Origin: a virus
Strand: one strand, 5' to 3'
Virus record (IMG/VR): IMGVR_UViG_3300044815_000127
Span: 1-34,491 of that record
Length of the DNA stretch: 34,491 bases
In this document: positions 1,067-34,168 of the stretch, piece after piece
Position numbering within the stretch: the first letter of the stretch is position 1
Layout of the letters: each line of letters starts with the position of its first letter
The notes under the pieces: generated by a model
The model's input: the letters and a program-made list of their open reading frames with translations, nothing else
Told to the model about the DNA's origin: nothing
Databases searched by the model: none
Translations under genes and position numbers: made by a program

Positions 1067-1078
1067 CAGGAGGGACCC

Positions 1079-1900: not shown

Positions 1901-1902
1901 CC

Positions 1903-2418
1903 ATGGCTGACTTCCGTGAGGACGACAGCATCTATCCCGTCCTGCTCGCGATGCTGGAGTGCGCTGAGCTCGAGCTGGAGAAGTCGGGGCTGCCACCGGT
2001 CGGCTACGCCTCGATCCAGCCCGGTGCGCTACCGGTGCTCGATCATGTGGGCAACGGGAAGGAGTGTGACGAGATGATCATCAACGTCACCAACGGCTTC
2101 CCGACCAACGGCTTTCCGATCATCGACCAGTTCGGCACGTGCGGCAGCGCCATGGCCTTCGAGGTGCAGCTCGGGGTCTTCCGCTGCGCGCCCGTGCCCG
2201 CCGGCAAGCTCCCCCAGAACTTCAAGCTGCCCACCCCGGTACAGCAGCTCAACGCCACCCGCCTGCATCTGGCCGACATGCAGGCCATGAAGCGCGCGCT
2301 CGCGTGCTGCCTCAAGAACTACGAGTACGTGATCCGCACTTGGCTGCCCTACGGGCCCGCCGGTGGCGCCGTAGGTGGCGCTTGGCTCGTGGCTGTCGGC
2401 GGGCGGAAGGACGAGTAG
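1903..2418 (+). CDS. Tail terminator / head-tail joining protein-like
   Basis: This 171-residue protein begins two bases after the previous stop. It contains FEVQLGVFRCAPVPAG near residues 86-101 and CCLKNYEYVIRTWLPYGPAG with a following GGAVGGAWLVAVGG at the C-terminus. This pattern recurs in actinophage proteins placed between the adaptor and the tail chaperones. The N-terminal third is helical and acidic. It probably closes the head-tail joint or the tail tip proximal end. It overlaps the next gene by one base (TAGTG). A head-stopper role is the alternative. Confidence 0.5.
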   Translation: MADFREDDSIYPVLLAMLECAELELEKSGLPPVGYASIQPGALPVLDHVGNGKECDEMIINVTNGFPTNGFPIIDQFGTCGSAMAFEVQLGVFRCAPVPAGKLPQNFKLPTPVQQLNATRLHLADMQAMKRALACCLKNYEYVIRTWLPYGPAGGAVGGAWLVAVGGRKDE

Positions 2419-2828
2419 TGGCCTATCGGGTCGAGGTCTTCGAGTCGGAGATCCAAGGGATGTTCGCGATGTCGGGTGAGGTCGGCCGCGAAGCCCAGTT
2501 CACCGCTCGGGAGATCACCGTGGCCGCAGAAGCGATAGTTCCTCGCGGTGCGGTACCACGAGGTGACACGCTCTCAGGTCAACACCGGACACGCTTCGTC
2601 CCGGCATCCTTCGGGTATGGATTCCGCTTCTACGTCGAGAACACCTCCGGTCACGCCGAGTGGGTCCACGAGGGGGTCGATGGAATCATCTACCCATGGG
2701 GCAAGGTTCTGGTGCTCCACCTACCCGGAGGGTCCGTAAAGGCACGTTTTGTAAGGGGACAGGGCAGCCAGCCATGGCTGCGCGAGGCGGCCGAGGGAGT
2801 ACTCTTTGGGAAGTACGGCCGGTCATAA
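2418..2828 (+). CDS. HK97 gp10-like head-tail joining protein
   Basis: The frame starts at a GTG that shares a base with the previous stop (TAGTG), giving 136 residues. The layout is that of gp10-type minor joining proteins: a helical N-terminus (REAQFTAREITVAAEAIVPRG), a basic stretch, then FRFYVENTSGHAEWVHEGV near residues 73-91 (the YA-x-x-VE-x-GT-like element of the family), and a C-terminal PWLREAAEG helix. It would sit at the head-tail interface. No in-frame ATG near the start competes with the GTG. Confidence 0.5.
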   Translation: MAYRVEVFESEIQGMFAMSGEVGREAQFTAREITVAAEAIVPRGAVPRGDTLSGQHRTRFVPASFGYGFRFYVENTSGHAEWVHEGVDGIIYPWGKVLVLHLPGGSVKARFVRGQGSQPWLREAAEGVLFGKYGRS

Positions 2829-2843
2829 CAGAGAGAAGACCCC

Positions 2844-3272
2844 ATGAAGGAAATGCGGTTCGCCACCGAGCGGACGAAGGATAAGGACGGTCGCGACACC
2901 GTCGAACTTCCAATCAACGGTGAGGCGTACTTGGCTTATCGGCCAAGCACTAACATCATCGCGCTGTTCTACGCCGCGCAGGGCAAGAAGAATGTCGCTA
3001 CCGCACTGGCAGGTATTCTCGATTTCCTCCAGCGGACCCTTGAGCCTGAGGCCTACGCGATCATCCTCAAGGCGGTGGAGGAGGACGCGCTGGAGTTTGG
3101 TGAGCTCATTGAGCTCGCGCACGACATCATCGCGGAGTTCGCCGAAAACCCTACTGGGTCGTCCGCCGACTCTTCTTCGTCGCGGGCGAGCACTGGGGGA
3201 GCATCGACGGCGAGCTTGCGGCGGCCGGCGTCGACCCGGGTGCCCTCCCGCTCCCGCGCTTCCTCCGACTGA
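2844..3272 (+). CDS. Tail assembly chaperone, short form (gpG-like)
   Basis: This 142-residue acidic, helical protein (DFLQRTLEPEAYAIILKAVEEDALEFGELIELAHDIIAEFAE) lies directly upstream of the tape measure gene, the standard place for the first tail chaperone. The start ATG follows AGAGAAGA. After residue 103 the zero frame becomes a low-complexity Ser/Arg tail. The -1 frame, by contrast, reads as a well-composed protein, so the tail of the short form is probably just read-through to the first stop. The protein guides tape measure folding and tube polymerisation and is not usually in the virion. Confidence 0.75.
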   Translation: MKEMRFATERTKDKDGRDTVELPINGEAYLAYRPSTNIIALFYAAQGKKNVATALAGILDFLQRTLEPEAYAIILKAVEEDALEFGELIELAHDIIAEFAENPTGSSADSSSSRASTGGASTASLRRPASTRVPSRSRASSD

Positions 3273-3439
3273 TCTACTGGTTTTTCACTCGCAATCTCAC
3301 AACTGAACAACGCGAGGAGTTCTATCTCTGGCTCATGTTGCCCCCTGCGGGTAGCGAGTCATCCCCCGAAGTGATGGAAGCCTTGAGAGAATCGGAGCTA
3401 GCCGCGTTCGACGCGCTGTCTAGGCAACAAGGGGGGTAG
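2844..3439 (+). CDS. Tail assembly chaperone, frameshifted long form (gpGT-like)
   Basis: A -1 ribosomal frameshift at A-AAC-CCT (3146-3152) would join residues 1-103 to a 95-residue extension (YWVVRRLFFVAGEHWGSIDG onward, ending LSRQQGG), about 198 residues in all. The coding join is 2844..3152 and 3152..3439. The extension contains LPLPRFLRLIYWFFTRNLT and EQREEFYLWLML, well-formed protein in an otherwise unexplained 170-base stretch between 3272 and the tape measure. It has no good start of its own. This is the conserved G/GT arrangement of lambda-like tails. Confidence 0.75.
3146..3152 (+). promoter_or_regulatory. -1 frameshift slippery heptamer AAACCCT
   Basis: In the zero frame the codons are GCC GAA AAC CCT, so the heptamer fits X-XXY-YYZ: AAC can slip to AAA and CCT to CCC. 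It lies exactly where the gpG frame stops making sense and the -1 frame begins to. Confidence 0.7.
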
Positions 3440-3442
3440 GGC

Positions 3443-5860: not shown

Positions 5861-5862
5861 AC

Positions 5863-8800
5863 ATGGGCTACGACGGATTCTTGGCCTTCGGTGGCATCGA
5901 GATAATCAACGCCGCCCGCACCACGGCGTACATCAACAACCTGATGCCGTCGTTCCCGCTGGTGCGCCGCACGAACATCTACGACCAGCTGCACACCGCG
6001 CTCGAGCAGGAGCCCTACCGCACCCCGTTCCTTGACCAAGCAGACTGGGTCGATCTCAACCTGCCGGACTACGCCACCGGGTCCACGACGAGCCCGACGC
6101 ACGGCTTCTACGGGCTCTACCCGCTGGCCATCACCGGTATCGGGGACTCAACCATGAGTGCTGCGGTAACGGAAGGAATTCTCGACGGGGGCTCCATCAA
6201 CTCTGAGCGTGACTCGACGCGCAGTATCCGGGTCCGAGGCATTCTCGTCGGTGCCAACAAGCTGGCCGTGGAGGCCGGGCTTACGTGGCTGCGCAATGCG
6301 CTGCGGCGCAACTCCTGCGGGATGCATGGGGACCTGTGCGGATACGCCGACCTGCGCTTCCTCCTCGCGCCCCCCGAGGTCTGTGACCCAAAGTGGGAGT
6401 CGGCCTATGAGAACACCGAGCTTGTCGACATGGGCCCGATCGACCCGGCGTCTTCGCCGTTGGTGTACGTGGATGGTGAAGAGACTCGCCCGACGCGCAC
6501 GCGCTGGGTGCTCCCGCTTACCGATGGCGTGATTATCCGGTGGGAGGCACGCTCGTGGGATAACACGGAGCTGCTCGAGACCCATGGGCCGCTGTTCCTG
6601 CGTCGCTCGAACTTCGTGCCGAACCCTACCTTCGCGGTCGATGCCACCAACTGGACCATGCTCAACGACGCTACCCCAGCGGGGACGCCTACTCGGAAGG
6701 TGGGCATGCGCACCTATGGCCGCGTGGGAGAGGCGATCGCTGATATCTCCACGAACTGGCTGCCAGACCCGGGGTTCGAGAACGGCGACCCGACCACCAA
6801 TGGCTGGCGTTCGACCACCGCCGGCGGGATCACGGCGGTCACAGACGGCACCGCCCCGGATGGGACACACGTTGCCCGGGTCGCGGGGATCGCGGGCCTG
6901 ACGATGCTCGAGGTCAGCGCGCTCGGCCCGTACGACCCGGCCGACATGTACTTCAACCTCCAGATCAAGCAGTCCGTCGACGACGTGGTTGTCCACCTGA
7001 TCGACAATCACGGGGTCGAACTCGAGAGCCACACCGTTCTCGCCAGCGCCCTGACCTCGACGTGGAATGCCACAAGCGTCCACTTCACGGCGACCGTGCT
7101 CAAGGATTACGTCATCCGGCTGACCACGGCAGGCACGCAGGAACTGCGTATCGACTCGTGCATCCTCGCGATTACCAATGCCGCCTTCTTCTCGGGCGAC
7201 ACCGGCGCCTCGGCCGGCAACGTCTACTCGTTCCCCAATGGCTTTGCTGGCGTCTCGCGCAAGGTCCACGCGAACGCCGTGACTGCGAGCACCGCGCTCA
7301 CCGTGGAGACCGACTCGCCCTTCGGCAACGTCATCGTCAGCACCGAACTGCGCGCGCCCCACACGGAACCCACGGTCTTGATGGAGCTCATCGACCATGA
7401 CGGTTTCGTAGTCGCCAGTCAGGTCGTGACCCCCCCGCGCGATTGGACCCGCTACGCCTTCTCGGCGCCGTATGGTCGCACGCTGCGCCTGCGGGTCAGC
7501 TCGGCCCACCAGTTTGATATCTCCAAGGTGATGCTCGAGGCCGGCACCCAGCTCAACGCCTACTTCGACGGCTCCTTCGCGGCCCCCGCCGGATACACGC
7601 TGGTGTGGGTTGGCGCACCGAACGGGTCCATCTCGCGCATGGACTGGACCGGTGACACCGAGATCACGCTCAGCACGAACTTCCGCAGCATGCTGTACGT
7701 AGATCAGGGCACGATCAATAACGCACAGGTAGACGTGGACTACTCCAACGAGATCCCGATGTCGGTGCAGGTCGACCCCTATGACCGCACTTACCATCGC
7801 GTGGCCTGCACGACTGGCATCTCGCGTATTCGGGACATTGAGCTCGGGGTCGGCGCGGCGACGGAGGTTGACTTCGTCCTGACGGCCGCGACCCCCCACG
7901 CCTTCCAAACAATCCCCACGGACTTGAGCTTCGTGACGCCCGTGCCGACCACGATCTCAGACGAGGAGATCAACCTCGTCAAGTACCCCAGCGGTGAGAA
8001 GACCACGGGCACCACTGTCGACCTCACGAATATCGTCACCAACCCCAGCGCGGAGTCGGGCACAACCGGCTTCACCGCCCTGCCGGGTACGACGGGTGTT
8101 GCTGCCTGCACAAACCCCGTGCCGTCGACGACAACTGCCTTTGGAGCCAAGGTTCTCAAGACAACATGGAGCACGGCGAGCACGGCCGGTAGCACCGGTG
8201 TCCTTTTCACCCTCGCGGTTGGGTCGCTCACGGCCGGTACGGCGTACTCGTTCGGGATCAGCCACGTAAAATCTTCGATCAACCAGCGTCTGCGACTGGC
8301 TATTGACTGGAAGACGGCTGGGGGATCTACCATCAGCACCGACCTTTCAGCAGCCCCCATCGATGTTGTTGCTGGAACGATTTACAACACCTTCAAGATG
8401 GAGAACTTCGTCGCACCCGCGACCACCTCCTACGCGATCCTCTACCTGATCACTGCCACCGGTGGCAGCTTCGCGAACATGTCGATCGGTGCGTACTACG
8501 AGGTCGACGGCCTGATGATGGTCAATGCTTCGGTATTGCCAACGTGGTTTTCCGGTGCGACCGTCGCGGCGGGCGACTACACCTTCGCGTGGACCGGCAC
8601 GGCTGAGCTCAGCTCCAGCCAGCGGCTCACACCGCACGCGGATGGCCAGTATCCATTCACGGGGGTCGCCGATAAGGGAGCCGCCTTCCGCACGAGCGCG
8701 CAGTTCAAGTACGGGACACACGCGACGCGCTACGTGTGGCATGTCGCCCCGGCAGAAGATTCTAATCGCTCCTTCGGGTCTTCGATTGTGCCCGCCGAGG

Positions 8801-9732
8801 CGGCGGTCGTCGTCCCGCTACAGACATACACCGGCTCGATCTGGGTACGCCCGAGCAAGACCCAGAGCATGAGGGCCTCGCTCTGGTGGATGGATGCAGC
8901 TGGTGCCCCACTGGGAGAGTCTCTCGGGACCACGGCCAGCCGGGCCGGGGCGACGTGGGTGCGCCTGTCTGCCACTGGGGCCGCCCCAGTGGGAGCGGTA
9001 CGGGCCGCAATATTGGCATGGTCAATCACGCCGGGAACGGGCTACTCTCGCTGGGTCGCCGAAGACTACGTCGACATCGACGGGGAAATGATCCACTACG
9101 GGGACCCAAGCACGACGTTCTTCGATGGTGACACCATTGACACCTCCGCCTATGACTACTCGTGGGACGGGGTCGCTCAAGCGAGCCAGAGTCGACGGGT
9201 ATTCCACGTCGTGACACCGAGCCTTGTCGTCGACCCCGACCTGCCCGTGGTGCCCACCACCCCGGCGCCGCCGACTATTCCCGACCTCGCGATCGTGGAC
9301 CAGAATGAGTGGCTGCGCTATGCGGTGGAGATTCCGGCCGGCCTCGTCCCGCTATGGGCGGCCACTGTGCCGACCATCACGCTGCTCACCAAGACCACCG
9401 ATGTGCGGCAGGTCCGGGTCCGTTTCCACGCAAACCCCTTCGGGCGCCCGCTTAGTGGGATTGACCCGAGCGATTACTGTGGCGAGTTCCTGCTTAGCTA
9501 CCTACCGGCCAACTCCGCGCTCACGGTGAACGGCGTAACGCAGGAGGCGTACGCGGTCGTCGCTGGCGCGGCACCGGTCCCCGCGAGCCACCTGCTCTAC
9601 GGCACCGGTGGGACCCCCATGGTCTGGCCGGACCTGTCGTGCGCCCTGAGCTACTGGATGACCATCGACATTCTTCCGACCTCGAACGTGGCAAACCTCA
9701 CGTTCGATATGGTTTTCAATAGGCGCGAGTAG
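5863..9732 (+). CDS. Large minor tail protein with carbohydrate-binding-like modules
   Basis: This 1289-residue protein follows the tape measure, where the distal tail protein and tail-tip genes sit. The first ~200 residues resemble actinophage distal-tail proteins (YDGFLAFGGIEIINAART, then SIRVRGILVGANKLAVEAGL). The rest is a string of beta-sandwich modules like CBM4/9 domains. Module starts include NFVPNPTFAVDATNW (about residue 246), NWLPDPGFENGDPTTNGW (about 302) and NPSAESGTTGF (about 726). Module ends share an aromatic-F-[DS]-G...W-x-G...S-x-[SQ]-x-R pattern near 565, 892 and 1084. A Pro-rich linker near 1130 (VVPTTPAPPTIPD) leads to a final domain. It is likely to contact cell-wall glycans during adsorption. 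Confidence 0.75.
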   Translation: MGYDGFLAFGGIEIINAARTTAYINNLMPSFPLVRRTNIYDQLHTALEQEPYRTPFLDQADWVDLNLPDYATGSTTSPTHGFYGLYPLAITGIGDSTMSAAVTEGILDGGSINSERDSTRSIRVRGILVGANKLAVEAGLTWLRNALRRNSCGMHGDLCGYADLRFLLAPPEVCDPKWESAYENTELVDMGPIDPASSPLVYVDGEETRPTRTRWVLPLTDGVIIRWEARSWDNTELLETHGPLFLRRSNFVPNPTFAVDATNWTMLNDATPAGTPTRKVGMRTYGRVGEAIADISTNWLPDPGFENGDPTTNGWRSTTAGGITAVTDGTAPDGTHVARVAGIAGLTMLEVSALGPYDPADMYFNLQIKQSVDDVVVHLIDNHGVELESHTVLASALTSTWNATSVHFTATVLKDYVIRLTTAGTQELRIDSCILAITNAAFFSGDTGASAGNVYSFPNGFAGVSRKVHANAVTASTALTVETDSPFGNVIVSTELRAPHTEPTVLMELIDHDGFVVASQVVTPPRDWTRYAFSAPYGRTLRLRVSSAHQFDISKVMLEAGTQLNAYFDGSFAAPAGYTLVWVGAPNGSISRMDWTGDTEITLSTNFRSMLYVDQGTINNAQVDVDYSNEIPMSVQVDPYDRTYHRVACTTGISRIRDIELGVGAATEVDFVLTAATPHAFQTIPTDLSFVTPVPTTISDEEINLVKYPSGEKTTGTTVDLTNIVTNPSAESGTTGFTALPGTTGVAACTNPVPSTTTAFGAKVLKTTWSTASTAGSTGVLFTLAVGSLTAGTAYSFGISHVKSSINQRLRLAIDWKTAGGSTISTDLSAAPIDVVAGTIYNTFKMENFVAPATTSYAILYLITATGGSFANMSIGAYYEVDGLMMVNASVLPTWFSGATVAAGDYTFAWTGTAELSSSQRLTPHADGQYPFTGVADKGAAFRTSAQFKYGTHATRYVWHVAPAEDSNRSFGSSIVPAEAAVVVPLQTYTGSIWVRPSKTQSMRASLWWMDAAGAPLGESLGTTASRAGATWVRLSATGAAPVGAVRAAILAWSITPGTGYSRWVAEDYVDIDGEMIHYGDPSTTFFDGDTIDTSAYDYSWDGVAQASQSRRVFHVVTPSLVVDPDLPVVPTTPAPPTIPDLAIVDQNEWLRYAVEIPAGLVPLWAATVPTITLLTKTTDVRQVRVRFHANPFGRPLSGIDPSDYCGEFLLSYLPANSALTVNGVTQEAYAVVAGAAPVPASHLLYGTGGTPMVWPDLSCALSYWMTIDILPTSNVANLTFDMVFNRRE

Positions 9733-9735
9733 CTC

Positions 9736-10833
9736 ATGATCGAGCCACTGGAGAAGCACTCCGTCTTCATCATGGACAAGGGCGGCAAACAGCGCATCCA
9801 AGAGATCACCGACCTGACGCAGGTGGTATGGGAGCGCACTCGTGACGACATCTCGACGGCACAGGTGAATGTCTCGGCCAACAAGGACTCAGCACAAGCG
9901 GATTTTCTACGCTCGCTCGTCGGCGCCACCGGCCGCTACGAAATGTGCATCTGGCGCGAGGGGGTCCGCGAGTGGGAGGGCCCCTTGCTGCTACCAACCT
10001 TCACGAAGAATGGCGTGACGCTCGCGGCCCGCGACGTGATGCACTACTCCGAGCGGCTCATCATGAAGAATGCCTACAGCAACGCGTACCCGGCGGTCGA
10101 GTATGTCTCGACCCGAGCGGCCAATATCATGACGGCAGAGTTCGCTCGGCTGGAAGCGCTGAGTCCGGCGGTGAACGTGCTGCCATGGATGGTCAACCAC
10201 CACTTCTCGACCGACGCGATGACATCGCGCTCGACACTGCCCTTTCAGTACTACGTCTACGAGCACATCGACGACATGGCGGCCAACGCGGGGATGGACT
10301 ACACGGTGCTCGGCCGCGCGGTCCATTTCTGGGACACTTCGCAGCCCGTGATGGGCTACACCCGGACGGTCACCGAGAGCGACTTCTTCGGTGAGATGTA
10401 CGTCTCGGCCTACGGGATGGAGTTGGGCACCTACGCTGCCGTCACGGACGGGCAGGGCAATTATGGCGAAACGGGTGGGATCGATCCTTACTACGGGCTC
10501 GTCGAGCGCCTCGCAACGGCATATGACGAGAATGCCACCGCGCTGCCGTCATTGGCCGAGCTCACCTCGCAGGCCGTTCGCAACCTCGCTGGCCGCAACC
10601 CGACGCCGCTACAGGTCCGCGTGCCAGATGGCTCAAGCGTGAATATGTCGGGGGTACTGACGATGGCCGACTTGGTCCCCGGAATCTACGTGCCGATGCT
10701 GGCGCACTTCGGGATCGTGAAGGTCTCCCAGATGCAGAAGCTCAATAACGTGAAGGTGACCGAGACGGCGCAGGGCGAGAAGGTGGAAGTCAAGTTCTAC
10801 CCAGCTTCTGACTCGGATACGGTGGTGTCATGA
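9736..10833 (+). CDS. Minor tail protein (tail hub / Gp37-like)
   Basis: The 365 residues begin with a beta-rich domain (LEKHSVFIMDKGGKQRIQ, then LTQVVWERTRDDISTAQVNV), a pattern seen in actinophage minor tail proteins related to ReqiPepy6 Gp37-type hub proteins. The middle is aromatic (LPFQYYVYEHIDDMAANAGM), and the C-terminus returns to beta strands (MADLVPGIYVPML). It probably forms the baseplate hub below the distal tail protein. It overlaps the following gene by the four bases ATGA, which points to coupled translation. Confidence 0.65.
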   Translation: MIEPLEKHSVFIMDKGGKQRIQEITDLTQVVWERTRDDISTAQVNVSANKDSAQADFLRSLVGATGRYEMCIWREGVREWEGPLLLPTFTKNGVTLAARDVMHYSERLIMKNAYSNAYPAVEYVSTRAANIMTAEFARLEALSPAVNVLPWMVNHHFSTDAMTSRSTLPFQYYVYEHIDDMAANAGMDYTVLGRAVHFWDTSQPVMGYTRTVTESDFFGEMYVSAYGMELGTYAAVTDGQGNYGETGGIDPYYGLVERLATAYDENATALPSLAELTSQAVRNLAGRNPTPLQVRVPDGSSVNMSGVLTMADLVPGIYVPMLAHFGIVKVSQMQKLNNVKVTETAQGEKVEVKFYPASDSDTVVS

Positions 10834-12326
10834 GCGACTTTGCCCCGCAGAGCGGCAAGGAGTGGATGCGTCAGCAGACCAAGGACGGCGCCATTACGAA
10901 GCGTCGGGTTCCAAAGAACTGGCAAGCCACGATCGACGCGAATGCTGCGCTAGTCGCGCTCGCGGCGCGCAACCGCAACCGCATCCGCAACGGTAACAAC
11001 CGCACGAACCAACTCGGCATCATCTCCCCGAAGACTCTCGCGCCTCGGGAAATGGGCTTCGATGGGTGGGAGTGCGCGGGGATCACGAACCTCGTTACTA
11101 ACCCACGCGCGGGGACCAACACCACCGGGCAGCTTGCCAATAACGGAACCCTGTCCCGAGTCACCACTGGCGGGCCCACGGCGGCCATTCCTAGCTTCTT
11201 CCGCAATACGATGACCAGCACCACCGGCTCGGGAATCTTCATGCCCGATGCGACCATGACGAACATCGTTGCGAACAAGCTGTATACCGTGAGTGCCTAT
11301 CTCCGTTCCTCAGCGGCACTCACGCTCACCGGCCTTGACTACGTGCTTTTTAGCGGCGCCAGTCTGGTCTACGACGGCCCCAATACCACCGTGACCCTCG
11401 CCGCCAACACTTGGCAGCGCGTAACTTTCCAGATGAACACCTTCGGCGTGCCAGCCTTCACCTCGGCAAGCATCCGCTTCCTGAGTGGGGCATCCCTGGC
11501 CTCGGGTCAGACTCTCGATATGACAGGTCTCATGATCACCGAGGGGAGCCTTTTGTGGCCCTACCTCGACGGGGATTGCACTGACTGCGCCTTCACGGGA
11601 ACCTCCCATGCCAGCACGAGTGTTCGCGGCCCGTCGACTACAACCTTGACGTGGACGACAGCTCCGCATGGACAGCTTGTCACGCTCTCGTCGGGCGGTG
11701 GCGTTTCGCAAGTAGACGAGCGCGCTGATCTCGAAGCTGGGACTTGGATCGTCTCCCACGCGGGTACGGCTACCCTGCGCGTCTACAACGTGGGCACCGA
11801 TCCAGCCTCCCTGCCCGCGTTCGCGGCGTCCCCTGTTACCGTCACTCTCGACGGCCTCGATGACGTCGTGGTCGAGCTTCGGGCGGTCGGCGGTACTAAG
11901 ACCTATGGCAGCGTGCAATTCGAGAAGGGCGCTATCGCCACCCCATTCGAGGACATCCCAGTCCAGCAGGAGCTTGCCATCTGCCAGCGCTACTACTATC
12001 GCTGGACCTCGGTGTTGAACAATCAAAGCCTCGCGGGCGGCTTCCAGCAGATCACGGCTGGCGCCATCGTTTCCTTCGCGCTACCCGTGCCGATGCGAGG
12101 GCAGCCCTATGGCGTCGCTGCGAGTGGGATGTTCTGGACAGACGGAATCTCCTTCGCTAACGCGATCACCGCCGTATCACCAACGGATGTCACCGGGCGC
12201 TATTCTGGACCTCAACAGCTTTGGTTCTTCGCCGCATTCAGTGCTGCTGGAGCGCAGCGCTGGCCCGGGTTCGTTACCGCAAATACCGCTGGTGGTTGGT
12301 TTGAAGTGAATGCGAGACTGTACTAA
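10830..12326 (+). CDS. Minor tail protein / candidate receptor-binding protein
   Basis: The 498 residues start with a helical, basic N-terminus (MRQQTKDGAITKRRVPKNWQ, then AALVALAARNRNRIRNGNNR) that could attach to the hub. A beta-sandwich module follows, closing with LLWPYLDGDCTDCAFTG near residue 240, a version of the module-end motif in the 1289-residue protein. The C-terminal part has QELAICQRYYYRW, a motif frequent in phage tail-fibre tips just before the final beta domain. These features make it the best candidate for the host-binding protein. Coupled to the upstream gene by ATGA and to the downstream gene by TAATG. Confidence 0.6.
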   Translation: MSDFAPQSGKEWMRQQTKDGAITKRRVPKNWQATIDANAALVALAARNRNRIRNGNNRTNQLGIISPKTLAPREMGFDGWECAGITNLVTNPRAGTNTTGQLANNGTLSRVTTGGPTAAIPSFFRNTMTSTTGSGIFMPDATMTNIVANKLYTVSAYLRSSAALTLTGLDYVLFSGASLVYDGPNTTVTLAANTWQRVTFQMNTFGVPAFTSASIRFLSGASLASGQTLDMTGLMITEGSLLWPYLDGDCTDCAFTGTSHASTSVRGPSTTTLTWTTAPHGQLVTLSSGGGVSQVDERADLEAGTWIVSHAGTATLRVYNVGTDPASLPAFAASPVTVTLDGLDDVVVELRAVGGTKTYGSVQFEKGAIATPFEDIPVQQELAICQRYYYRWTSVLNNQSLAGGFQQITAGAIVSFALPVPMRGQPYGVAASGMFWTDGISFANAITAVSPTDVTGRYSGPQQLWFFAAFSAAGAQRWPGFVTANTAGGWFEVNARLY

Positions 12327-12562
12327 TGGCCGACTGGAACGTAAGCCGCGTGGGAGAAGACGATGTCTCTATTTCCGCAGACACACTGCTGGCGGCCATG
12401 GATGAAGCCCGAAGGCTCGGCGGCGAGCTGTTAGGTGTATCTCTGATCGTGGTCCAGCCCATCGACGCCCTCGCCTCGGGGATCGCAAAGCTGGTCGATC
12501 TTGGACTCTCCCCCGACGAGGCAGCAGCAATTGCTGGGACCGTGCCGGGCGAGCCGGCGTAG
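12326..12562 (+). CDS. Small unrecognised protein in the tail-lysis block
   Basis: This 78-residue acidic protein starts at an ATG sharing a base with the previous stop (TAATG). It has a helical segment (ADTLLAAMDEARRLGGELLG), a short hydrophobic strand (VSLIVVQPID) and a UBA-like ending (LVDLGLSPDEAAAIAGTVPG). The last element is suggestive but too short to assign a domain. The position before the endolysin could fit a chaperone or small tail component. Confidence 0.6.
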   Translation: MADWNVSRVGEDDVSISADTLLAAMDEARRLGGELLGVSLIVVQPIDALASGIAKLVDLGLSPDEAAAIAGTVPGEPA

Positions 12563-12587
12563 ACTACCTGCGATCGAGAGGACTTCC

Positions 12588-12767
12588 ATGCGGGCCATCA
12601 TCACGTTGAATCGGTCAGACGGATCTATCGTCGGTAAGCCCATTCCCGTGGACATCGACGAGTCCGGCGACATTCAGGCGCAGTTCGACAAGCTCAACGA
12701 AGAGTACGCTGCCAAGGTCGCTGACCCCTCAGACGACATCACCAACTTCCAGATCTTGGGCGCCTGA
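12588..12767 (+). CDS. Small unrecognised acidic protein before the endolysin
   Basis: The 59 residues start at the ATG at 12588 behind GAGAGGACTTCC. An upstream in-frame ATG at 12501 lies inside the previous gene and lacks a binding site. The protein begins MRAIITLNRSDGSIVGKPIP and ends NFQILGA, with an acidic helix between. The stop overlaps the endolysin start (TGATG). Function unknown. Confidence 0.6.
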   Translation: MRAIITLNRSDGSIVGKPIPVDIDESGDIQAQFDKLNEEYAAKVADPSDDITNFQILGA

Positions 12768-14527
12768 TGGCCTCCGCCGGCTGGGGTGGCTTCCAGAATG
12801 GTGAGATCCCGCTCAGCGCCATGGTGCAGGCCGAGCCCGGAATGTACCTACAGGCTGATGCTGCCGCGACGTGGCAGCGGATGGATGCCGCGTGCCCCTA
12901 CGCCCTCTCAATCAATGAGGCGTACCGCGATCTCGCGACTCAGCAGTATTACTGGAATCGCTACATCAACCACCTCCCGGGGTGGACGGTAGCCGCAGTT
13001 CCCGGAACCTCCAACCATGGTCGAGGCATGGCCGTCGACATCAACGAGTACAACGGCTCGGCATTCGACTGGCTCCGCTCCAACGCCGGCAACTTCGGCT
13101 GGAGCTGGGCCACGGGACAGGCGTCCGGTGAGCGCTGGCACTGGGAGTATGTGGGCTCGACCGGCTCAGCTTCCGCTCCGGCCACGATCAACTCCCGCCT
13201 CGACGAGGCGCGGCGCCGCGTTCTACAGGGCCAGCTCGGTGTGGCAGTGGATGGGGACTTCGGACCGATCTCGACTACCGCCCTCCAGAACCGCATTGGA
13301 ACGATCGGCGATGGTGACTTCGGCGAGCAGTCGACCCGGGCGCTACAGGCGTTCATCGGGGCAGATGTGGATGGCGTGTGGGGCTCGCAGACCCAGAGCC
13401 TCTTCGAGCAGAAGATCGACGCTGGCGCGTTCGGGGCCACCTCGAGCACTCCGGCACCGAGCGAGGGGATTGGCTTCGCCGCCCTCGGCTCCGCCCGAAT
13501 CGTCAACCTCCAGACCCAACTCAAGGTGGATGCGGACGGTGACTTCGGGATCAACTCCACGAAGGCCCTCCAGACCAATCTCGGGGTCGAGGCCGACGGG
13601 GTGTTCGGCCCGGTCAGTATCACCGCCCTCCAGCACCGCATTGGTGCTGCGGAGGACGGCGTGTGGGGACAGGAGACGCAGGACAAGTTCGGGCCGGCGA
13701 TCGACAGGGCGTTGTTCGTCACCGGCGCCACGACCCCACCCCCGGAGCCCGAGACGCTCCCGGCAGGGTATGGCTTCGGACCGGACGTGTCGTTCTACCA
13801 GTCGGGCACGATCGACTGGCCGACGTTCAGGGCCAACTTCGCGTTCATCGGCATCAAGGCCGCAGGAGCAGAGGACCCCCAGCCCAACCCGATCTACGGC
13901 CCGGCTGGACTCACCGACAAGCACCTCGCGGGCGCACGTTCCGTGGGACTGCCGGTGATCTTCTACTTTTTCAACAACGGAGCCCTGCCAGTGAAGCCGC
14001 AGGCAGACAAGTTCATCGAGGTTCTCAAGACCCGTATTCAGCCGGGCGACTGGATCGCGCTGGACGTGGAGAACGACGGCACCGCAGTGCCCCAGTTCTC
14101 GGAAGCGCAGGTGCTCGAGTTCGATGGTTACATGGAGACGGCGATCGGCATCAAAACGCTCAACTACCTCAATCGCAGCCTGATGAACAACGGCCAGTGG
14201 GGCCCCGTGGTCGACGCCGGCCACCCGTTGTGGCTCGCGGTGCTCGATGGCAGCGTGTCGAAGGGGTTGGCGGCCGCGAAAAAGACGCAGTTCTGGAGCG
14301 CGCCGGTCGTCGTGCAGTACGACAGCTCGACCCCCGCACCCGGCTACGCCGGCAATATCGACAAGAACTTCGCCAACCTGTCCGAGCTCGCGCGGTACGC
14401 CTTCAAGGCATTCCCGGTACCGACGCCCACACCCGATCCAGTCGACGTGCCGAAGCTCAAGGACCTAACGGCCGAAGTGGTCACCGCGACGAATGCTCTC
14501 GTGGGGTACGTCAACACGCTGGAGTGA
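12767..14527 (+). CDS. Endolysin: M15 peptidase + peptidoglycan-binding repeats + GH25 muramidase
   Basis: This 586-residue enzyme degrades host peptidoglycan. Residues ~1-130 form an M15 (VanY-type) peptidase: SNHGRGMAVDI gives zinc ligands H84 and D91, and GERWHWEY gives E122 and H125. Residues ~145-310 carry six peptidoglycan-binding-like units with DG[DV][FW]G cores near 162, 182, 202, 257, 277 and 297, in two blocks of three, each with a 20-residue period. Residues ~334-545 look like a glycoside hydrolase family 25 lysozyme: GPDVSFYQ with D340, IALDVEND with D433 and E435, and a closing GYAGNIDKNF. A PTPTPDP linker leads to a short helix. It has no signal peptide, so release probably needs a holin. 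The nearest candidate holins are on the plus strand at 22688-23927. Confidence 0.85.
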   Translation: MASAGWGGFQNGEIPLSAMVQAEPGMYLQADAAATWQRMDAACPYALSINEAYRDLATQQYYWNRYINHLPGWTVAAVPGTSNHGRGMAVDINEYNGSAFDWLRSNAGNFGWSWATGQASGERWHWEYVGSTGSASAPATINSRLDEARRRVLQGQLGVAVDGDFGPISTTALQNRIGTIGDGDFGEQSTRALQAFIGADVDGVWGSQTQSLFEQKIDAGAFGATSSTPAPSEGIGFAALGSARIVNLQTQLKVDADGDFGINSTKALQTNLGVEADGVFGPVSITALQHRIGAAEDGVWGQETQDKFGPAIDRALFVTGATTPPPEPETLPAGYGFGPDVSFYQSGTIDWPTFRANFAFIGIKAAGAEDPQPNPIYGPAGLTDKHLAGARSVGLPVIFYFFNNGALPVKPQADKFIEVLKTRIQPGDWIALDVENDGTAVPQFSEAQVLEFDGYMETAIGIKTLNYLNRSLMNNGQWGPVVDAGHPLWLAVLDGSVSKGLAAAKKTQFWSAPVVVQYDSSTPAPGYAGNIDKNFANLSELARYAFKAFPVPTPTPDPVDVPKLKDLTAEVVTATNALVGYVNTLE

Positions 14528-15853: not shown

Positions 15854-15882
15854 CGGATTGGTCGTCTAGTTGCTAGACGATC
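15848..15882. repeat. CTAG dyad copy 2 with extended 22-base flank
   Basis: The dyad is TCGTCTAG-TTG-CTAGACGA at 15862-15880. The preceding 22 bases, 15848-15869, match copies 3 and 6 at 18 and 19 positions. The element spans the convergent ends of two genes and carries both stop codons (plus-strand TAG at 15851-15853, minus-strand TAG at 15868-15866). Here it could also act as a two-way terminator, though no T-runs flank it. Confidence 0.8.
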
Positions 15883-16498
15883 CCATGGCTGCGTCGCGGT
15901 CGGCCTCGCTGTACTCAGTCGCTACCCCGGCACGCGTGGCGCCCATGTATACGCTGGCCGCGACGATGGCGTCCGAGGACATATTGGCGGCGAAGTTCAG
16001 CGTCTCGCCCCGCGAGATGCCATATCCTCCGGCCACCGCGAACGAGTCGATGCCGGTGCCGAGGAACGTGAAGGCCCAGTTGAACTCGGCCTTCTGCTTC
16101 TCGACCAGTGCCTTGACCTGCTCAGTGGTGTACTCACGCGAGGCGTTCTCCTGTCCGTCCGTGATCACTGCGAGGATGACCGTGCCGGGTCGGTCTTCCT
16201 CGGGCATGTTCGCGAACTTCTCGCCGAGGCGGACGATCGTCGAGCCGAGAGCATCGTTGAGCGCGGTGCCACCTCGGGGAACGATAATCCGGCCCTTGAC
16301 CTCGTCCGGTCGCACGTCCACGTAGAGCGTCTCGATCGTCGTGTCGAAGGTCGTGACGTCGATGTGTAACTCCCCGGGCAGTTTGGCCTGCTCCGCTATC
16401 AAGCCGTGGATCGCGGGCTCCATATCGCCCTCGATGGAGGTCATCGAGCCACTGCGATCAACGATCAGGGCGAGGTGGGTGTACTGGCTATTTGTCAT
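15866..16498 (-). CDS. von Willebrand factor A (VWA) domain protein
   Basis: The 210 residues form a single VWA domain. The metal-ion-dependent adhesion site is complete: D14-x-S16-x-S18 in LIVDRSGSM, T78 in RGGTALND, and D114 in VITDGQEN. It is close in style to TerY-like and other stand-alone VWA proteins of bacteria and phages, which bind a partner through Mg2+. No signal peptide or membrane segment is seen, so it is cytoplasmic. It overlaps the upstream zinc-ribbon gene by ATGA, and a CCCAACAGAGAG leader precedes its start, so the two proteins are made together. Its partner and role in the phage are unknown. Confidence 0.8.
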   Translation of the reverse strand: MTNSQYTHLALIVDRSGSMTSIEGDMEPAIHGLIAEQAKLPGELHIDVTTFDTTIETLYVDVRPDEVKGRIIVPRGGTALNDALGSTIVRLGEKFANMPEEDRPGTVILAVITDGQENASREYTTEQVKALVEKQKAEFNWAFTFLGTGIDSFAVAGGYGISRGETLNFAANMSSDAIVAASVYMGATRAGVATEYSEADRDAAMGSSSN

Positions 16499-23604: not shown

Positions 23605-23927
23605 CCGACTACACTCCGTACTTCATTTCCGGTATCTTCCTGATTGGCGGCGGCCTCGTAGGAGGCTTCTTCCTGCTGCGTAACCGCCGTCGGCAAGAGC
23701 TCATACCGGTGCCTCCGACATGGCCGGAGATCCTCGCGAAGTTCGAGAGCCAAGACAAGAAGATCGCCGCGCTCGGCCGACTACTCGCCAGCGCAGCCGA
23801 GCAGTGGCCGAGTGACCGACCGGGCCCGATCTTCGACGACCGGGACCTGATGGTCGTCGACGAGGACACGATGCCCGCCAACTGGCGGCGGACGCCGCGC
23901 CGCCCACGGACTGCCCCTCAGGGCTAG
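23601..23927 (+). CDS. Single-pass membrane protein, third of the cassette
   Basis: The GTG at 23601 overlaps the previous stop (GTGA), giving 108 residues. One N-terminal helix (YFISGIFLIGGGLVGGFFLL) is followed by RNRRRQE and a charged cytoplasmic region with a possible short coil (LAKFESQDKKIAALGRLLAS). An N-in or N-out anchor with a soluble coil could be an antiholin or regulator. Its TAG stop shares a CTAG with the stop of the convergent gene. Confidence 0.55.
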   Translation: MTDYTPYFISGIFLIGGGLVGGFFLLRNRRRQELIPVPPTWPEILAKFESQDKKIAALGRLLASAAEQWPSDRPGPIFDDRDLMVVDEDTMPANWRRTPRRPRTAPQG

Positions 23928-24781
23928 TGGCCCAGTGGCCCCCACGTTCCGGGGCCGTAGTTATACCGCAGCGCGTCCAGTGGCTGCCACGTCCCGGTTG
24001 AGGCGTTGTAGCGCTTTCCGTCGTTGACGTCCCAGATCCCGGTGCTGCTCTTGAAGCGCCGGCCGAGGCCCACGGGGTCCGTCTGGGTAAGGAGGATGGT
24101 GCTAGACCATGCGCCACCGAGCACGCCGGCCGCATCCGTGAGAGCGTTACGCGCGACCGCACGATAGTAGTAGTCAGCCCCCGGGGTTAGACCGGTCATC
24201 ACCGTGATGCCGGTGGAGTTGACCGTCGCCACCCCAGTGGTGAAGGCGGAGTTGGTAGCGCGCTGCACCCGCCATCCAGTGAGCCCTGAGCCACCGTCAT
24301 CAACGGGGGTGCCGGTATTGAGGGTGATGGTCGCTTGGTCACCGTCGGAGTTCGAGACCACTGAAATGACGGTAGGCGCCAGCGGCGGCTGGATGTATCG
24401 GTACGCCCCGCCGATCACGCCGGACCATGCCGGGTTGTCGTAGGAGTCGCGCGAGGCGCCGGTGCCGTTGCTCGATCGCAGGAAATGGAAGGTCGAGATT
24501 GTCTGGGACTGGATGGTGAAAGTGGCGCTGCCGCCGGAGACGATCCAGAGGTTGGTCCCGACGTAGCCGGTGCCGCCGAGTGTGCCGCCGAAATACCCCG
24601 TGGCAGCCGAGCCGAGGATCAGGGCGATGGTGCCGCTGCTGTAGGCGTAGAGGGCCGTGATGCCCGCCCGGTTCGCGCCGTCCGAGCAGGCCCGGCCACC
24701 CGGCAGGCCAATGCCGTCGGTGGCGGCGAACTGGTCGGTGAACGAGTTGACCGCTGTTCCGCCGAACCCTACGTCTGGCAT
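23924..24781 (-). CDS. Fibronectin type III structural-type protein (candidate virion appendage)
   Basis: The 285 residues have a Gly-rich beta N-terminal domain (1-130, e.g. GGTLGGTGYVGTNLWIVSGG), an FN3 domain (about 132-228: PPLAPTVISVVSNSDGDQAT, then LTPGADYYYRAVARN), and a C-terminus with repeats of an [RK]-[FY]-x-x-STG-x-W type (RRFKSSTGIW, KRYNASTGTW, then a variant RYNYGPGTW). FN3 domains are frequent on phage virions and tail proteins. It is the only structural-type gene on the minus strand, isolated from the tail operon. Confidence 0.6.
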   Translation of the reverse strand: MPDVGFGGTAVNSFTDQFAATDGIGLPGGRACSDGANRAGITALYAYSSGTIALILGSAATGYFGGTLGGTGYVGTNLWIVSGGSATFTIQSQTISTFHFLRSSNGTGASRDSYDNPAWSGVIGGAYRYIQPPLAPTVISVVSNSDGDQATITLNTGTPVDDGGSGLTGWRVQRATNSAFTTGVATVNSTGITVMTGLTPGADYYYRAVARNALTDAAGVLGGAWSSTILLTQTDPVGLGRRFKSSTGIWDVNDGKRYNASTGTWQPLDALRYNYGPGTWGPLGH

Positions 24782-27495: not shown

Positions 27496-27740
27496 AGCAG
27501 GCCCAGCAGCCGTCGCAGCGCATTGTCGAGCACGCCGGCAAGCTTGGCGTTGTCGTTGAACGATGACCACATCTGGACATATCCCTCGCCATCGAGCTCG
27601 ATCACGACCCGACCGACCGCCGAGTCCGCCGCCTTCGGCGGGGGTGAGGTGACGAAGTCGGGTACCTCTTCGTCGGAAGTCATATGCGTCACGAAGCCAC
27701 CGGCCTCGTCGATCTTGCGCTGGTAGTCCTTGTCAGGCAT
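27492..27740 (-). CDS. Unrecognised 82-aa protein
   Basis: The ATG at 27740 overlaps the previous gene by eight bases (ATGCCTGA), a style repeated at other junctions here. The product reads MPDKDYQRKIDEAGGFVTHM, has a beta pair (VGRVVIELDGEGYVQMWSSF), and ends with a helix (LAGVLDNALRRLLGLL). No family recognised. Confidence 0.6.
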   Translation of the reverse strand: MPDKDYQRKIDEAGGFVTHMTSDEEVPDFVTSPPPKAADSAVGRVVIELDGEGYVQMWSSFNDNAKLAGVLDNALRRLLGLL

Positions 27741-28110
27741 GCTGCTCCATTTCTGGGTAGAGGTCCCTGCTCCATTCGAACTGGTCGAGCAGGGAGTTGG
27801 CGAGTGCGGCGCGGAGCAGGAGCAGCAACGCGTCGCGCTCGTCCTGCCACTGGGCGAACGCCTGCGCTTGGATACCGTAGGCGTCGTCGCTCATGTCGAG
27901 GTACTTGGGCTGCTCGGACACCATCTTCTCGAGCATGTCGAGAGCGAGGCGCACCAGCTGATCGGCCTTGGGCGCAGGGACCGGTGCTGCGGAGTCCCCG
28001 GCAACGATGTGGTAATCGATGATGCGGGTCAGGGCACCCAGCGGCAGGACGTCGCTACCGCTGACGCGGTACTTCTCGCGCAGTTGGATCAGATCGGAAA
28101 GAATGCTCAT
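27733..28110 (-). CDS. Unrecognised 125-aa helical protein
   Basis: The ATG at 28110 has AAGGACTTAGGC upstream and is the internal start of a longer frame. The helical product opens MSILSDLIQLREKYRVSGSD and contains LVRLALDMLEKMVSEQPKY and QDERDALLLLLRAALANSLL. CTAG dyad copy 4 lies about 15 bases before the start, and a hairpin separates it from the surface protein gene upstream, so this may begin a new unit. Confidence 0.6.
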   Translation of the reverse strand: MSILSDLIQLREKYRVSGSDVLPLGALTRIIDYHIVAGDSAAPVPAPKADQLVRLALDMLEKMVSEQPKYLDMSDDAYGIQAQAFAQWQDERDALLLLLRAALANSLLDQFEWSRDLYPEMEQHA

Positions 28111-28126
28111 GCCTAAGTCCTTAGAT

Positions 28127-28142
28127 GGATAGCGGCTAGATG
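28127..28142. repeat. CTAG dyad copy 4 (degenerate)
   Basis: Read on the minus strand, CATCTAG-CCG-CTATCC keeps one full half-site and the centre, while the second half is altered. It lies 17-32 bases upstream of the minus-strand start at 28110. Confidence 0.55.
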
Positions 28143-28150
28143 ACTGGGGA

Positions 28151-28191
28151 CCCGTGGGCCGGCGGCCTGTGACCTCCGGCCGGCCCACGGG
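28151..28191 (-). terminator. Strong hairpin after the surface protein gene (possible terminator)
   Basis: CCCGTGGGCCGG (28151-28162) and CCGGCCCACGGG (28180-28191) are perfect 12-bp arms around a 17-base loop. No T-run follows on either strand. It lies just downstream of the LASTG gene stop and is the clearest candidate for a factor-dependent or U-less terminator in the right half. Confidence 0.55.
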
Positions 28192-28198: not shown

Positions 28199-29404
28199 CT
28201 ACTGGCGACGCAGGCGAACGGTGACGATCGTCGCGGCCAGTCCGAGCAGCACCAGAATGGCTCCGCCGAGGAACAGCGTGCCGGTCTGGTCAGCGTCGAC
28301 ACCGGTGGACGCCAGCGCTGGAGCACTGGGTGTCGGGGTCGGCGTGGGGGTAACCACTGCGCTGAATGGCTGGATGGTGCAGTTGTAGTGCTGTGCCGTC
28401 AGGAACAACGACCCGCCCGGGTTCACCCAGACCGCGATCTCGTCGATCTGCGGGTCAGCCATGGCGTCGCGCAGGTCGGTGACCGAGTAGTACGAGCCAC
28501 TGCCCGGGAACAGGCCCGGGGTGGTGGTCCAGTACGTGCCGCCGTCGAAGTGGATGTTCCACGTGGTGTTGTGGATGATCACCCCGAAGCTGCCGGTCTG
28601 GTCCGTGAACTCCGTCACCAGTGAGCCCATCTCAGACAGCGGGATGGTGGTGTCGAAGTCGAGGTAGGCGTATGCCTCCTCGACGGCGGTGGCCGTCAGC
28701 TGGATGCCGCCGGGCTCCCACGTCCCATTGAGCAGGTCGCCCCAACCCATCGGGTCCACATCGGTGGCCGTGGGCAGGGTTGACTCAGACTCGCACTCGG
28801 TGACCGGCAGGTAGCAGTAGCTGTCGTCGTTCACCGCGAGGCCGTCAGGCACCTCGGACTGGTTGCCCTCGATGTTGTCGCAGACGTCGACCGGCGGGCA
28901 GCAGTAGTCACCGTCGAGCGTGTAGCCATCGGGCACCTCCGTCTGCACGCCGTCGATGTTGTCGCAGACGTCCACGGGGGGCGTCTCACAGACATCGGTG
29001 GTTATGTACTTCCACGGGTTGCCATCGACAGCCCCGAAGGCGAGGTGCTCGGTCGGGTCGTTGGGCCCGTGCAGCACGTTGCCGGCGATGAGCGCGTCGG
29101 TGGTCGAATCGTTGAGGTACAGGTCGATCTGGTAGTAGCTGCCGCACGCGAACTCGCTGTTATCCAGCGCGCTCAGGTCAGCAGTGTCTTCCAGAACTTC
29201 GGCGAAGACCGTCTGGTCCGGCCCGAAGGGGTCGGCCGGTCCACCGGGGACCAGCCATGCGACGAGGTGGTAGGCCGGTGTTTCGACCACCGTCTCGGTG
29301 ATACCCGGATCGGGCGCGTCGTCGGCAATCGCGGGCGCGGCAAGAATGCCACCGAGCCCCGACGCAACGAGCACGGCCAGAGCCGCAGTTGCGAGTTTGT
29401 TCAT
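28199..29404 (-). CDS. Secreted, sortase-anchored surface protein (LASTG motif)
   Basis: This 401-residue protein has a signal peptide (MNKLATAALAVLVASGLGGI, predicted cut after A27 in APAIA-DD), a large exported region, and a sorting signal. Residues 142-169 and 170-198 are two similar units (PPVDVCDNIDGVQTEVPDGY and PPVDVCDNIEGNQSEVPDGL), each ending in Cys. A TPTPTPTPSAPA linker precedes LASTG (364-368), a hydrophobic helix (LFLGGAILVLLGLAATIV) and RLRRQ. LAxTG is the signal of class E sortases of high-GC Gram-positives. So the host sortase would fix the protein to the cell wall. It may change the cell surface, for example blocking other phages. Its start overlaps the upstream gene (ATGA). 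Confidence 0.8.
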   Translation of the reverse strand: MNKLATAALAVLVASGLGGILAAPAIADDAPDPGITETVVETPAYHLVAWLVPGGPADPFGPDQTVFAEVLEDTADLSALDNSEFACGSYYQIDLYLNDSTTDALIAGNVLHGPNDPTEHLAFGAVDGNPWKYITTDVCETPPVDVCDNIDGVQTEVPDGYTLDGDYCCPPVDVCDNIEGNQSEVPDGLAVNDDSYCYLPVTECESESTLPTATDVDPMGWGDLLNGTWEPGGIQLTATAVEEAYAYLDFDTTIPLSEMGSLVTEFTDQTGSFGVIIHNTTWNIHFDGGTYWTTTPGLFPGSGSYYSVTDLRDAMADPQIDEIAVWVNPGGSLFLTAQHYNCTIQPFSAVVTPTPTPTPSAPALASTGVDADQTGTLFLGGAILVLLGLAATIVTVRLRRQ

Positions 29405-29658
29405 TGTCGTGCCTCTCTGTTTTCCGCCACGGGTGTGGCGTCGTCCGGCTTTTGCCGGTCGTTCATGGGGTCACTTTGCGGGTGACTAGACCGTAGCATC
29501 CTCTTGCGCAGGTAGGCCAGCGTGCGCCCCTCCGCCCCCTCGATGCCGCTCTCGAAGTCCCGGATCACGTCGCCCGGGTCCAGTCCATCGAGCCATACTC
29601 CGAACGCGATGTCCGAGGCCAGCTCGTCATTCGGGGAAGGATCGTCGGGCCACGCCAC
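29401..29658 (-). CDS. Unrecognised 85-aa acidic protein
   Basis: The GTG at 29658 begins one base after the HNH stop. Earlier residues of the frame are a shadow. The product has VAWPDDPSPNDELASDIAFG, VWLDGLDPGDVIRDFESGIE and a basic helix (GRTLAYLRKRMLRSS). It ends MNDRQKPDDATPVAENREAR, overlapping the surface protein start. Function unknown. Confidence 0.55.
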   Translation of the reverse strand: MAWPDDPSPNDELASDIAFGVWLDGLDPGDVIRDFESGIEGAEGRTLAYLRKRMLRSSHPQSDPMNDRQKPDDATPVAENREARQ

Positions 29659-29659
29659 G

Positions 29660-30088
29660 TCAATCGAACTCCACCATGGCGAGGATCTTCTGGACGCGAT
29701 CCATCGCCCACCCGGGGTCAACCCACTGGCGGTCCCCGACGTCGTCGGCCAGCCACCAGTTTCTGGTCATCCGGTCAAAATATGGGACCATGTTGCAGGG
29801 GACGGGGCAAGAGCGGGCGACCTTCCACCCGCAGCGCAGGGCTTCGGCTTGACCGTACCCTTCCGCCTCCGAGTTGCAGGTCCCACACAGAACGAGACCG
29901 TCCGCGCAGGTCAGCTCGGGGGACTTCGGTCCTCGTCCGCCAGAGCCTTTCGCGCGCCGATGTTGCATGGTGACTGGCGATCTTCCGCACCGCAAGCATC
30001 GGTCGCCGTCGCGCGAGAAGATCCTGCGCCGTTGGTCGAGCGTGAAGTCGGATGTCCGCGCCGTGGACCACGGCCCAGAGCGCCTCAC
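29660..30088 (-). CDS. HNH endonuclease-like protein
   Basis: The GTG at 30088 overlaps the upstream TGA (GTGA), giving 142 residues. It has RIFSRDGDRCLRCGRS with C31 and C34, then MQHRRAKGSGG with H43, then DGLVLCGTCNSEAEG with C68, C71 and N72. This is the HNH plan with paired zinc cysteines, although the last His position is Asn. The rest is Trp-rich (MTRNWWLADDVGDRQWVDPG). It may cut DNA in the phage replication or packaging process, or be a homing endonuclease. Confidence 0.75.
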   Translation of the reverse strand: MRRSGPWSTARTSDFTLDQRRRIFSRDGDRCLRCGRSPVTMQHRRAKGSGGRGPKSPELTCADGLVLCGTCNSEAEGYGQAEALRCGWKVARSCPVPCNMVPYFDRMTRNWWLADDVGDRQWVDPGWAMDRVQKILAMVEFD

Positions 30089-33397: not shown

Positions 33398-33558
33398 GGG
33401 GACACCGCCAGACCGATGTTCAGGAGGCCAAGGCAGAGAAGGCCAAGGCCGACGAGAACTCCCCACCACGGCAGTCGACCCCAGACGACGGTGCCAACGA
33501 GGTAGACGATGGCGACCAACAGGCAGAAGATTCCGATGACCAAACCGAAGACGTCCAT
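33394..33558 (-). CDS. Tiny membrane protein with two helices (54 aa)
   Basis: The ATG at 33558 shares a base with the upstream stop (TGATG). Two hydrophobic helices are clear: FGLVIGIFCLLVAIVYLVGT and WWGVLVGLGLLCLGLLNIGL, joined by VVWGRLP. The protein is likely to lie in the host membrane. It could alter membrane potential or block other phages, but no evidence decides this. Confidence 0.65.
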   Translation of the reverse strand: MDVFGLVIGIFCLLVAIVYLVGTVVWGRLPWWGVLVGLGLLCLGLLNIGLAVSP

Positions 33559-33890
33559 CAGTCCTCCCACTCCCACTTGTGGCTGCGGTGCTTGCCGGGA
33601 TGGAAGATGACCCGGTAGCACTTCTCGCCCTCGTGACGGGCCTCGCAGGTCGGGCGCGAGTAGCCGGTGAGGCCCTCGATCCGGTCGGGGTAGAGGTCGT
33701 CGAGCACGGCCACCCGGTTCTTATAGAAGCTGTAGACCGTGCCAATCGAAACGCCCGCCTCGGTGGCGATCATCTGGGTGGTGAAGCCATCCCGGCCACG
33801 CACGGCGATTACGTTGCGCGCGGCGTCACGGATGTTCTCGAGCTGGGCGAGGCCGCGTGCCTGCACCGGTGTCTTGCGGAGGGGTGTCAC
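33558..33890 (-). CDS. Stand-alone TetR-type helix-turn-helix protein (110 aa)
   Basis: The GTG at 33890 has GAAGGAATCACC upstream and overlaps the upstream stop. An ATG at 33905 lies inside the neighbour. Residues ~20-65 form the TetR N-terminal DNA-binding domain: LENIRDAARNVIAVRGRDGF, TTQMIATEAGVSIGTVYSFY, then KNRVAVLDDLYPD. The normal ligand-binding and dimer domain of ~130 residues is absent. Instead 40 residues follow, with C and H residues (PTCEARHEGEKCYRVIFHPG). It could bind short palindromes, including the CTAG dyads. Confidence 0.7.
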   Translation of the reverse strand: MTPLRKTPVQARGLAQLENIRDAARNVIAVRGRDGFTTQMIATEAGVSIGTVYSFYKNRVAVLDDLYPDRIEGLTGYSRPTCEARHEGEKCYRVIFHPGKHRSHKWEWED

Positions 33891-34168
33891 GGTGATTCCT
33901 TCCATGTCAGTGTTCCGTCAGACGCGATGCGCCCAATCTCACCCAGCCTCCAGAGCGCAACGCTCTTATCCGAGAAGAAGCCATCGCTCTGGTAGAGCAT
34001 CGACCACTTCCGGCCGAAGAGCTCATTCACGATTGAGCGCGCGGCGTCGTAGTCGAGCGCCTCGACAATGACGTACCCGTCACCACTGGCCTGCAACCAG
34101 CGGGGGTGAGGCTCCCTATTCGGACCGGGGCCAGTGCCAACACCGAAGGTCAGGACCCACTCGCTCAT
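33887..34168 (-). CDS. Unrecognised 93-aa protein
   Basis: The ATG at 34168 overlaps the upstream TGA (ATGA). An earlier ATG at 34234 would lie inside the upstream gene. The product opens MSEWVLTFGVGTGPGPNREP and has a YVIVEALDYDAARSIVNEL segment, FGRKWSMLYQSDGFFS and RLGEIGRIASDG. This looks like an alpha/beta protein. Function unknown. Confidence 0.55.
   Translation of the reverse strand: MSEWVLTFGVGTGPGPNREPHPRWLQASGDGYVIVEALDYDAARSIVNELFGRKWSMLYQSDGFFSDKSVALWRLGEIGRIASDGTLTWKESP

Follow-up and report, generated by a model that had tools for sequence, protein, structure and literature searches.

A phage-encoded protein with a predicted LAxTG wall anchor and its counterparts in Microbacterium and Curtobacterium phages

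Described wall-anchored proteins and the closest phage counterparts

Staphylococcus prophages are known to carry a gene for a surface protein anchored in the wall, SasX, which differs from the protein described here in its LPXTG signal, its class A sortase, its temperate phage carrier and its role in colonisation, and which is likened to it by architecture and not by sequence. The LAXTG signal is found in the Streptomyces chaplins ChpA-C, which go with the class E sortases SrtE1/E2, and is the class E sortase signal of soil and freshwater Actinobacteria (PMC5148588), in agreement with the original prediction for this locus; the chaplins, however, are bacterial developmental proteins and are not phage-encoded. 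Our literature search returned no paper linking actinophages with sortase substrates, and the pattern of one such protein per Microbacterium phage genome that is reported below was likewise not found.

Proteins of four Curtobacterium phages (Sunfish gp106, Kithara gp65, Shrew gp28 and Yappy gp103) resemble the protein described here in having a signal peptide, a homologous N-terminal domain, a LAFTG or LAYTG motif, a helix and a basic tail, but they lack its Cys units, their bodies finish in Pro/Thr/Ser-rich linkers and they are just 24-32% identical to it in the common domain. The LAxTG-anchored architecture is also shared by proteins of the Microbacterium phages Big4 (gp260), A3Wally, Zooman, Magritte and Pumpernickel and of Micrococcus phage Kurnik, although these are mostly larger and have repeat domains, with an Excalibur domain in Big4; the N-terminal domain is held in common with Big4 (40% identity over 68 aa). 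The homology search that had been proposed for the Cys unit found tandem copies in a 106-kb IMG/VR virus contig (L016), where the open reading frame at 2357-3421 joins a signal peptide, a tandem pair of DVCPNIEGDQATVPEG units and a LAMTG anchor to a different N-terminal domain. Separately, one and the same secreted protein of 294 aa, which has tandem DVCPN units and no LAxTG anchor, is encoded by three IMG/VR contigs from different samples (L014, L015 and L017).

The predicted anchored protein and its gene

The window, by which we mean the whole stretch of DNA analysed, is a virus record of 34,491 bases and represents an incomplete contig. Matches to its minor tail protein come from Microbacterium phages in 122 of 164 records, which points to a host among the Microbacteriaceae. 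The features needed for the comparison are as follows.

101-14527, plus strand: tail and lysis side (major tail, head-tail adaptor, tape measure, minor tail, tail fibre, endolysin)
27733..28188, minus strand: downstream gene, 151 aa, no assigned function, placed in the same operon by position
28199..29404, minus strand: anchored-protein gene, 401 aa, predicted to be secreted and wall-anchored, ATG at 29404, TAG at 28199
28202..28216, minus strand: basic tail RLRRQ, residues 397-401
28217..28279, minus strand: hydrophobic helix, residues about 376-396, from hydrophobicity
28301..28315, minus strand: sorting motif LASTG, residues 364-368, 38 residues short of the C-terminus
28316..28360, minus strand: Thr/Pro-rich linker, residues 349-363, putatively wall-spanning
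28361..28798, minus strand: C-terminal body domain, residues 203-348, without detectable relative
28805..28891, minus strand: Cys unit 2, residues 172-200
28892..28975, minus strand: Cys unit 1, residues 144-171
28988..29275, minus strand: N-terminal domain, residues 44-139, common to Sunfish, Kithara, Shrew, Yappy and Big4
29324..29404, minus strand: signal peptide, residues 1-27, from sequence and hydrophobicity, with probable cleavage between APAIA and DD
29401..29721, minus strand: upstream gene, 106 aa, no assigned function, its stop overlapping the anchored-protein ATG as ATGA
29412..29417, minus strand: Shine-Dalgarno-like GAGAGG, 7 nt ahead of the ATG

The reading frame at 28199-29404, originally proposed without a strand, is real and lies on the minus strand, its GC content by codon position (0.63/0.48/0.86) being coding-like for DNA of 64% GC. 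The gene sits within a leftward run of small non-structural genes, on the strand opposite to the tail and lysis genes, and farther right the same run holds genes for an exonuclease, a Rad52-type recombinase, an HNH protein, RusA and SSB. Its earlier description as part of an early-type operon, apart from the virion genes, is thus correct for position and company. Other observations in the window include a minor-tail-like protein (phrog_6977; 23924-24781, minus) on the non-structural strand and distant from the tail genes, a 586-aa endolysin with VanY peptidase and GH25 muramidase domains (12767-14527, plus), a protein of phrog_7371, function unassigned, whose VDRSGSM (MIDAS-like) motif suggests a von Willebrand A domain (15866-16498, minus), and a 115-aa protein consisting of a TetR-type DNA-binding domain only (33558-33905, minus).

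All of the elements originally read in the protein, namely the signal peptide, the LASTG motif, the hydrophobic helix, the RLRRQ tail and the two Cys units, were found again in the sequence. The signal peptide begins with MNK, is hydrophobic over residues 4-23 and ends in APAIA before DD, with the cut expected after residue 27; it was recognized as an N-terminal Sec signal peptide by crude hydrophobicity and the AxA rule, not by SignalP. The last cysteine of the N-terminal domain (C139) is invariant and both Cys units read VDVCDNI[DE]GxQ[TS]EVPDG. Sequence searches of Pfam, PHROGs, NCBIfam and the PDB gave nothing usable for the protein, and it had no match among the curated anchor models of Pfam and NCBIfam, which are a supporting and not a defining feature. 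AlphaFold single-sequence models of the two protein halves reached pLDDT values of 41.8 and 36.2, too poor for a fold search. As a lead, the C-terminal body is possibly a beta-sandwich. A likeness of this body to the body domain of Microbacterium phage MO526 was considered and is unsupported (BLASTP E=0.069 in a single comparison).

Relatives, sorting signal and distribution among phages

Relatives were sought with tblastn against 50,697 phage records, the LAxTG motif playing no part in their finding. The N-terminal domain was found in Big4 gp260 (E=1e-3 with the whole protein as query, 1e-5 with the domain only) and in Sunfish gp106 (E=5e-2 and 8e-3, respectively), and from these two further homologues were reached in Kithara, Shrew, Yappy, A3Wally, Zooman, Magritte, Pumpernickel, Kurnik, FuzzBuster and SM23, so that homologues of the N-terminal or linked domains span Curtobacterium, Microbacterium and Micrococcus phages. 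A profile HMM of the four Curtobacterium domains (leave-one-out) recovered the window protein with E=6.8e-4 as its sole extra match in 3,814 ORFs. With moderate confidence, we take the N-terminal domain homology among the window, Sunfish, Kithara, Shrew, Yappy and Big4 proteins, as judged from their sequences, to be real but distant. Every homologue with an intact C-terminus terminates in LAxTG, a helix and a basic tail, the motif variants among these body-homology relatives being LAFTG, LAATG, LATTG, LAYTG and LAQTG. SM23 is the exception, its reading frame diverging directly after LATTG; the annotated start of the SM23 gene (L010:2960-4897) lies about 200 codons ahead of the likely signal peptide, and the gene as deposited lacks the anchor helix. 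The relatives are annotated as membrane or hypothetical proteins and one as a glycosyl hydrolase. The latter, Sunfish gp106 (L001:5479-6519), is labelled "glycosyl hydrolase membrane protein" without Pfam or NCBIfam support for a hydrolase and is a LAFTG-anchored relative of the window protein. On curated models, Big4 gp260 falls below the cut-off of the LAVTG model (score 26.2, cut-off 27) and the MO526 protein below that of TIGR01167 (score 15.6, cut-off 15.9). The genes of the relatives occupy the positions of non-structural genes, adjoining a helicase gene in FuzzBuster, a sigma factor gene in Margaery, and resolvase and RecE genes in Nicole72. By a pattern method that detects close relatives only, no relative was found in viral contigs scanned with the whole protein and domain alignments, and none in chromosomes or prophages among genome contigs; a plasmid search gave no match.

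The sorting signal was scored where the motif fell within the last 55 residues and was followed by a hydrophobic 15-mer, with two or more K/R closing the protein. The window protein carries LAxTG, helix and basic tail in this arrangement, as does no other of the 235 ORFs in the window, and a full signal arose in 26 of 20,000 trials when its last 55 residues were shuffled. A motif-aware scan of 3,814 ORFs, comprising the window and eight phages with relatives, gave one match per genome except in SM23 (7 of the 8 relatives), all of them LAxTG and all with a signal peptide. Across approximately 10,000 ORFs of the window and 24 phages, LA.TG passed 18 times and LP.TG not at all, and the 23 other letter orders of the motif passed 8 times summed. 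A motif-blind test asking for a signal peptide, a C-terminal helix and a basic tail in at least 130 aa was passed by 19 ORFs, which come from the window and 18 phages, and in 16 of them LAxTG stands ahead of the helix. The same test, which is not fully sensitive (Viceroy was missed, though it passes the motif-aware test), found no ORF in the five controls from Arthrobacter, Gordonia and Streptomyces, nor any in Merry and the contigs G003-G005.

Prevalence was judged in a sample picked by minor tail homology and not by the anchored gene, with the exception of Cucurbita, which entered through an SSB match. Exactly one protein with a signal peptide and LAxTG is encoded by 9 of the 11 Microbacterium phages so picked (Viceroy, Margaery, Terij, ClearAsMud, MO526, Nicole72, Hendrix, Hyperion and Smarties), a count in which some phages are related (Viceroy and Hyperion are both Squashvirus), the independent number being nearer five groups, and which covers Viceroy, Hyperion and the control Kovu up to 60 kb and ORFs left uncut by division into 20-kb pieces. 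Merry has no such protein. In Fransoyer there is a short LAATG frame that lacks a signal peptide and may be a shortened form or one with another start; this frame (L071, minus, starting at 12088) also contains a helix and a Cys-rich stretch. None of the five controls, the Arthrobacter phages Kovu, Pointis and Michelle, Gordonia phage Cucurbita and Streptomyces phage TurkishDelight, has such a protein. Nor is such a gene seen in G003-G005, the three contigs (one of them 54 kb long) whose major tail proteins place them nearest to the window, and it is therefore accessory in the lineage of the window virus. The bodies of the phage LAxTG proteins are of several unrelated types. By sequence, the trait thus recurs in Microbacterium and Curtobacterium phages and is not peculiar to the window virus, a point which the original prediction had missed, and the more interesting result is that most of the sampled Microbacterium phages encode a single predicted substrate of a class E sortase.

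Probable anchoring to the host wall and possible roles in infection

The proposal of a sortase-anchored surface protein is supported by the finding that unrelated phage clusters keep LAxTG, helix and basic tail on divergent bodies, and it is very probable that the protein is exported and wall-anchored. A search of 30 phage records and the window for sortase genes gave none, which implies the use of a host enzyme, and the localization together with the part played by the host suggests, with good though somewhat lower confidence, a phage-encoded substrate of a host class E sortase. The protein would be exported through the host Sec pathway and its C-terminal helix would retain it in the membrane, whereupon a class E sortase, assumed to be present in the host, would cut LASTG between T and G and join the protein to the host peptidoglycan. 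The Thr/Pro linker would then span the wall, with the N-terminal domain, the Cys units and the C-terminal body displayed outside.

What the displayed protein does is a more tentative matter, no function having been recognized in the body domains of the anchored proteins, and the roles first suggested for it (a block to superinfection, altered adhesion or service during lysogeny) are conjectural. The protein is likely to be made in the infection cycle rather than in the lysogen only. Most Microbacterium phages are strictly lytic (PMC7302621), and the wall protein of a lytic phage has one infection cycle in which to act, which would favor an effect on how phages adsorb to the infected cell. We accordingly place receptor masking or superinfection exclusion tentatively first among the roles: the protein, made during infection, would change the outside of the infected cell and thereby reduce the adsorption of further phages, siblings included, or would keep progeny from adsorbing to cells already used.

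Lysogenic conversion, in which a temperate phage would provide its lysogen with a useful anchored adhesin or surface modifier, has a precedent in prophage-borne LPXTG surface proteins such as SasX of Staphylococcus. No head, terminase or replication genes were seen among the window proteins scanned, so the contig is a fragment, and integration genes may lie in the part absent from it. However, no integrase or repressor was identified among those same proteins, the relatives belong to phage groups mostly published as lytic, no chromosomal or prophage relative appeared in genome contigs at a sensitivity suited to close relatives, and the strictly lytic habit of most Microbacterium phages weakens the option further (PMC7302621); we consider it unlikely. 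Somewhat less likely still is an adhesin that clumps infected cells or fixes them to surfaces and so helps progeny to reach new hosts, for while the displayed multi-domain build with Cys units and the differences in body between phages would suit such a role, no known adhesin domain was recognized.

Phage superinfection-exclusion proteins that act at the membrane are known, and several relatives are annotated as membrane proteins, so the helix could be a plain C-terminal transmembrane anchor, with LASTG unprocessed and the protein acting at the membrane, for instance by blocking DNA entry. This is improbable given the 18 passes of LA.TG against 8 for its permutations in the same ORFs, the position of the motif ahead of the helix in most motif-blind matches and the presence of Thr/Pro linkers that suit wall spanning. 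A host surface-protein gene lately acquired by chance and without a role for the phage is more doubtful again: the Cys-unit and repeat modules, which we take to resemble actinobacterial surface modules, and the presence of the Cys unit in other virus contigs speak for it, but one such gene per phage over several unrelated clusters and host genera, and the lack of a close chromosomal relative in the genome contigs, speak against it. A virion component with a cleaved N-terminus and a hydrophobic C-terminus, for which no supporting point was found, is highly improbable and was rejected, given the strand opposite to the tail genes, the full wall-sorting signal and the location of relatives among replication and recombination genes.

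Returning to receptor masking, a broader and more speculative version is that obligately lytic Microbacterium and Curtobacterium phages generally encode one class E substrate each, with interchangeable bodies on a constant LAxTG anchor, and thereby re-coat the host wall within a short infection cycle, which would amount to a new sortase-dependent class of superinfection exclusion or receptor masking. Wall-anchored phage proteins have so far been known mainly as prophage cargo aiding a pathogen, whereas here they are found singly in phage genomes from a host group with mostly lytic phages, would rely on the sortase of the host and are labelled merely as membrane or hypothetical proteins. If receptor masking is the true role, these phages would possess a sortase-dependent exclusion system open to immediate testing with available phages in Microbacterium foliorum, and the sortase status of the host would help to determine competition between phages.
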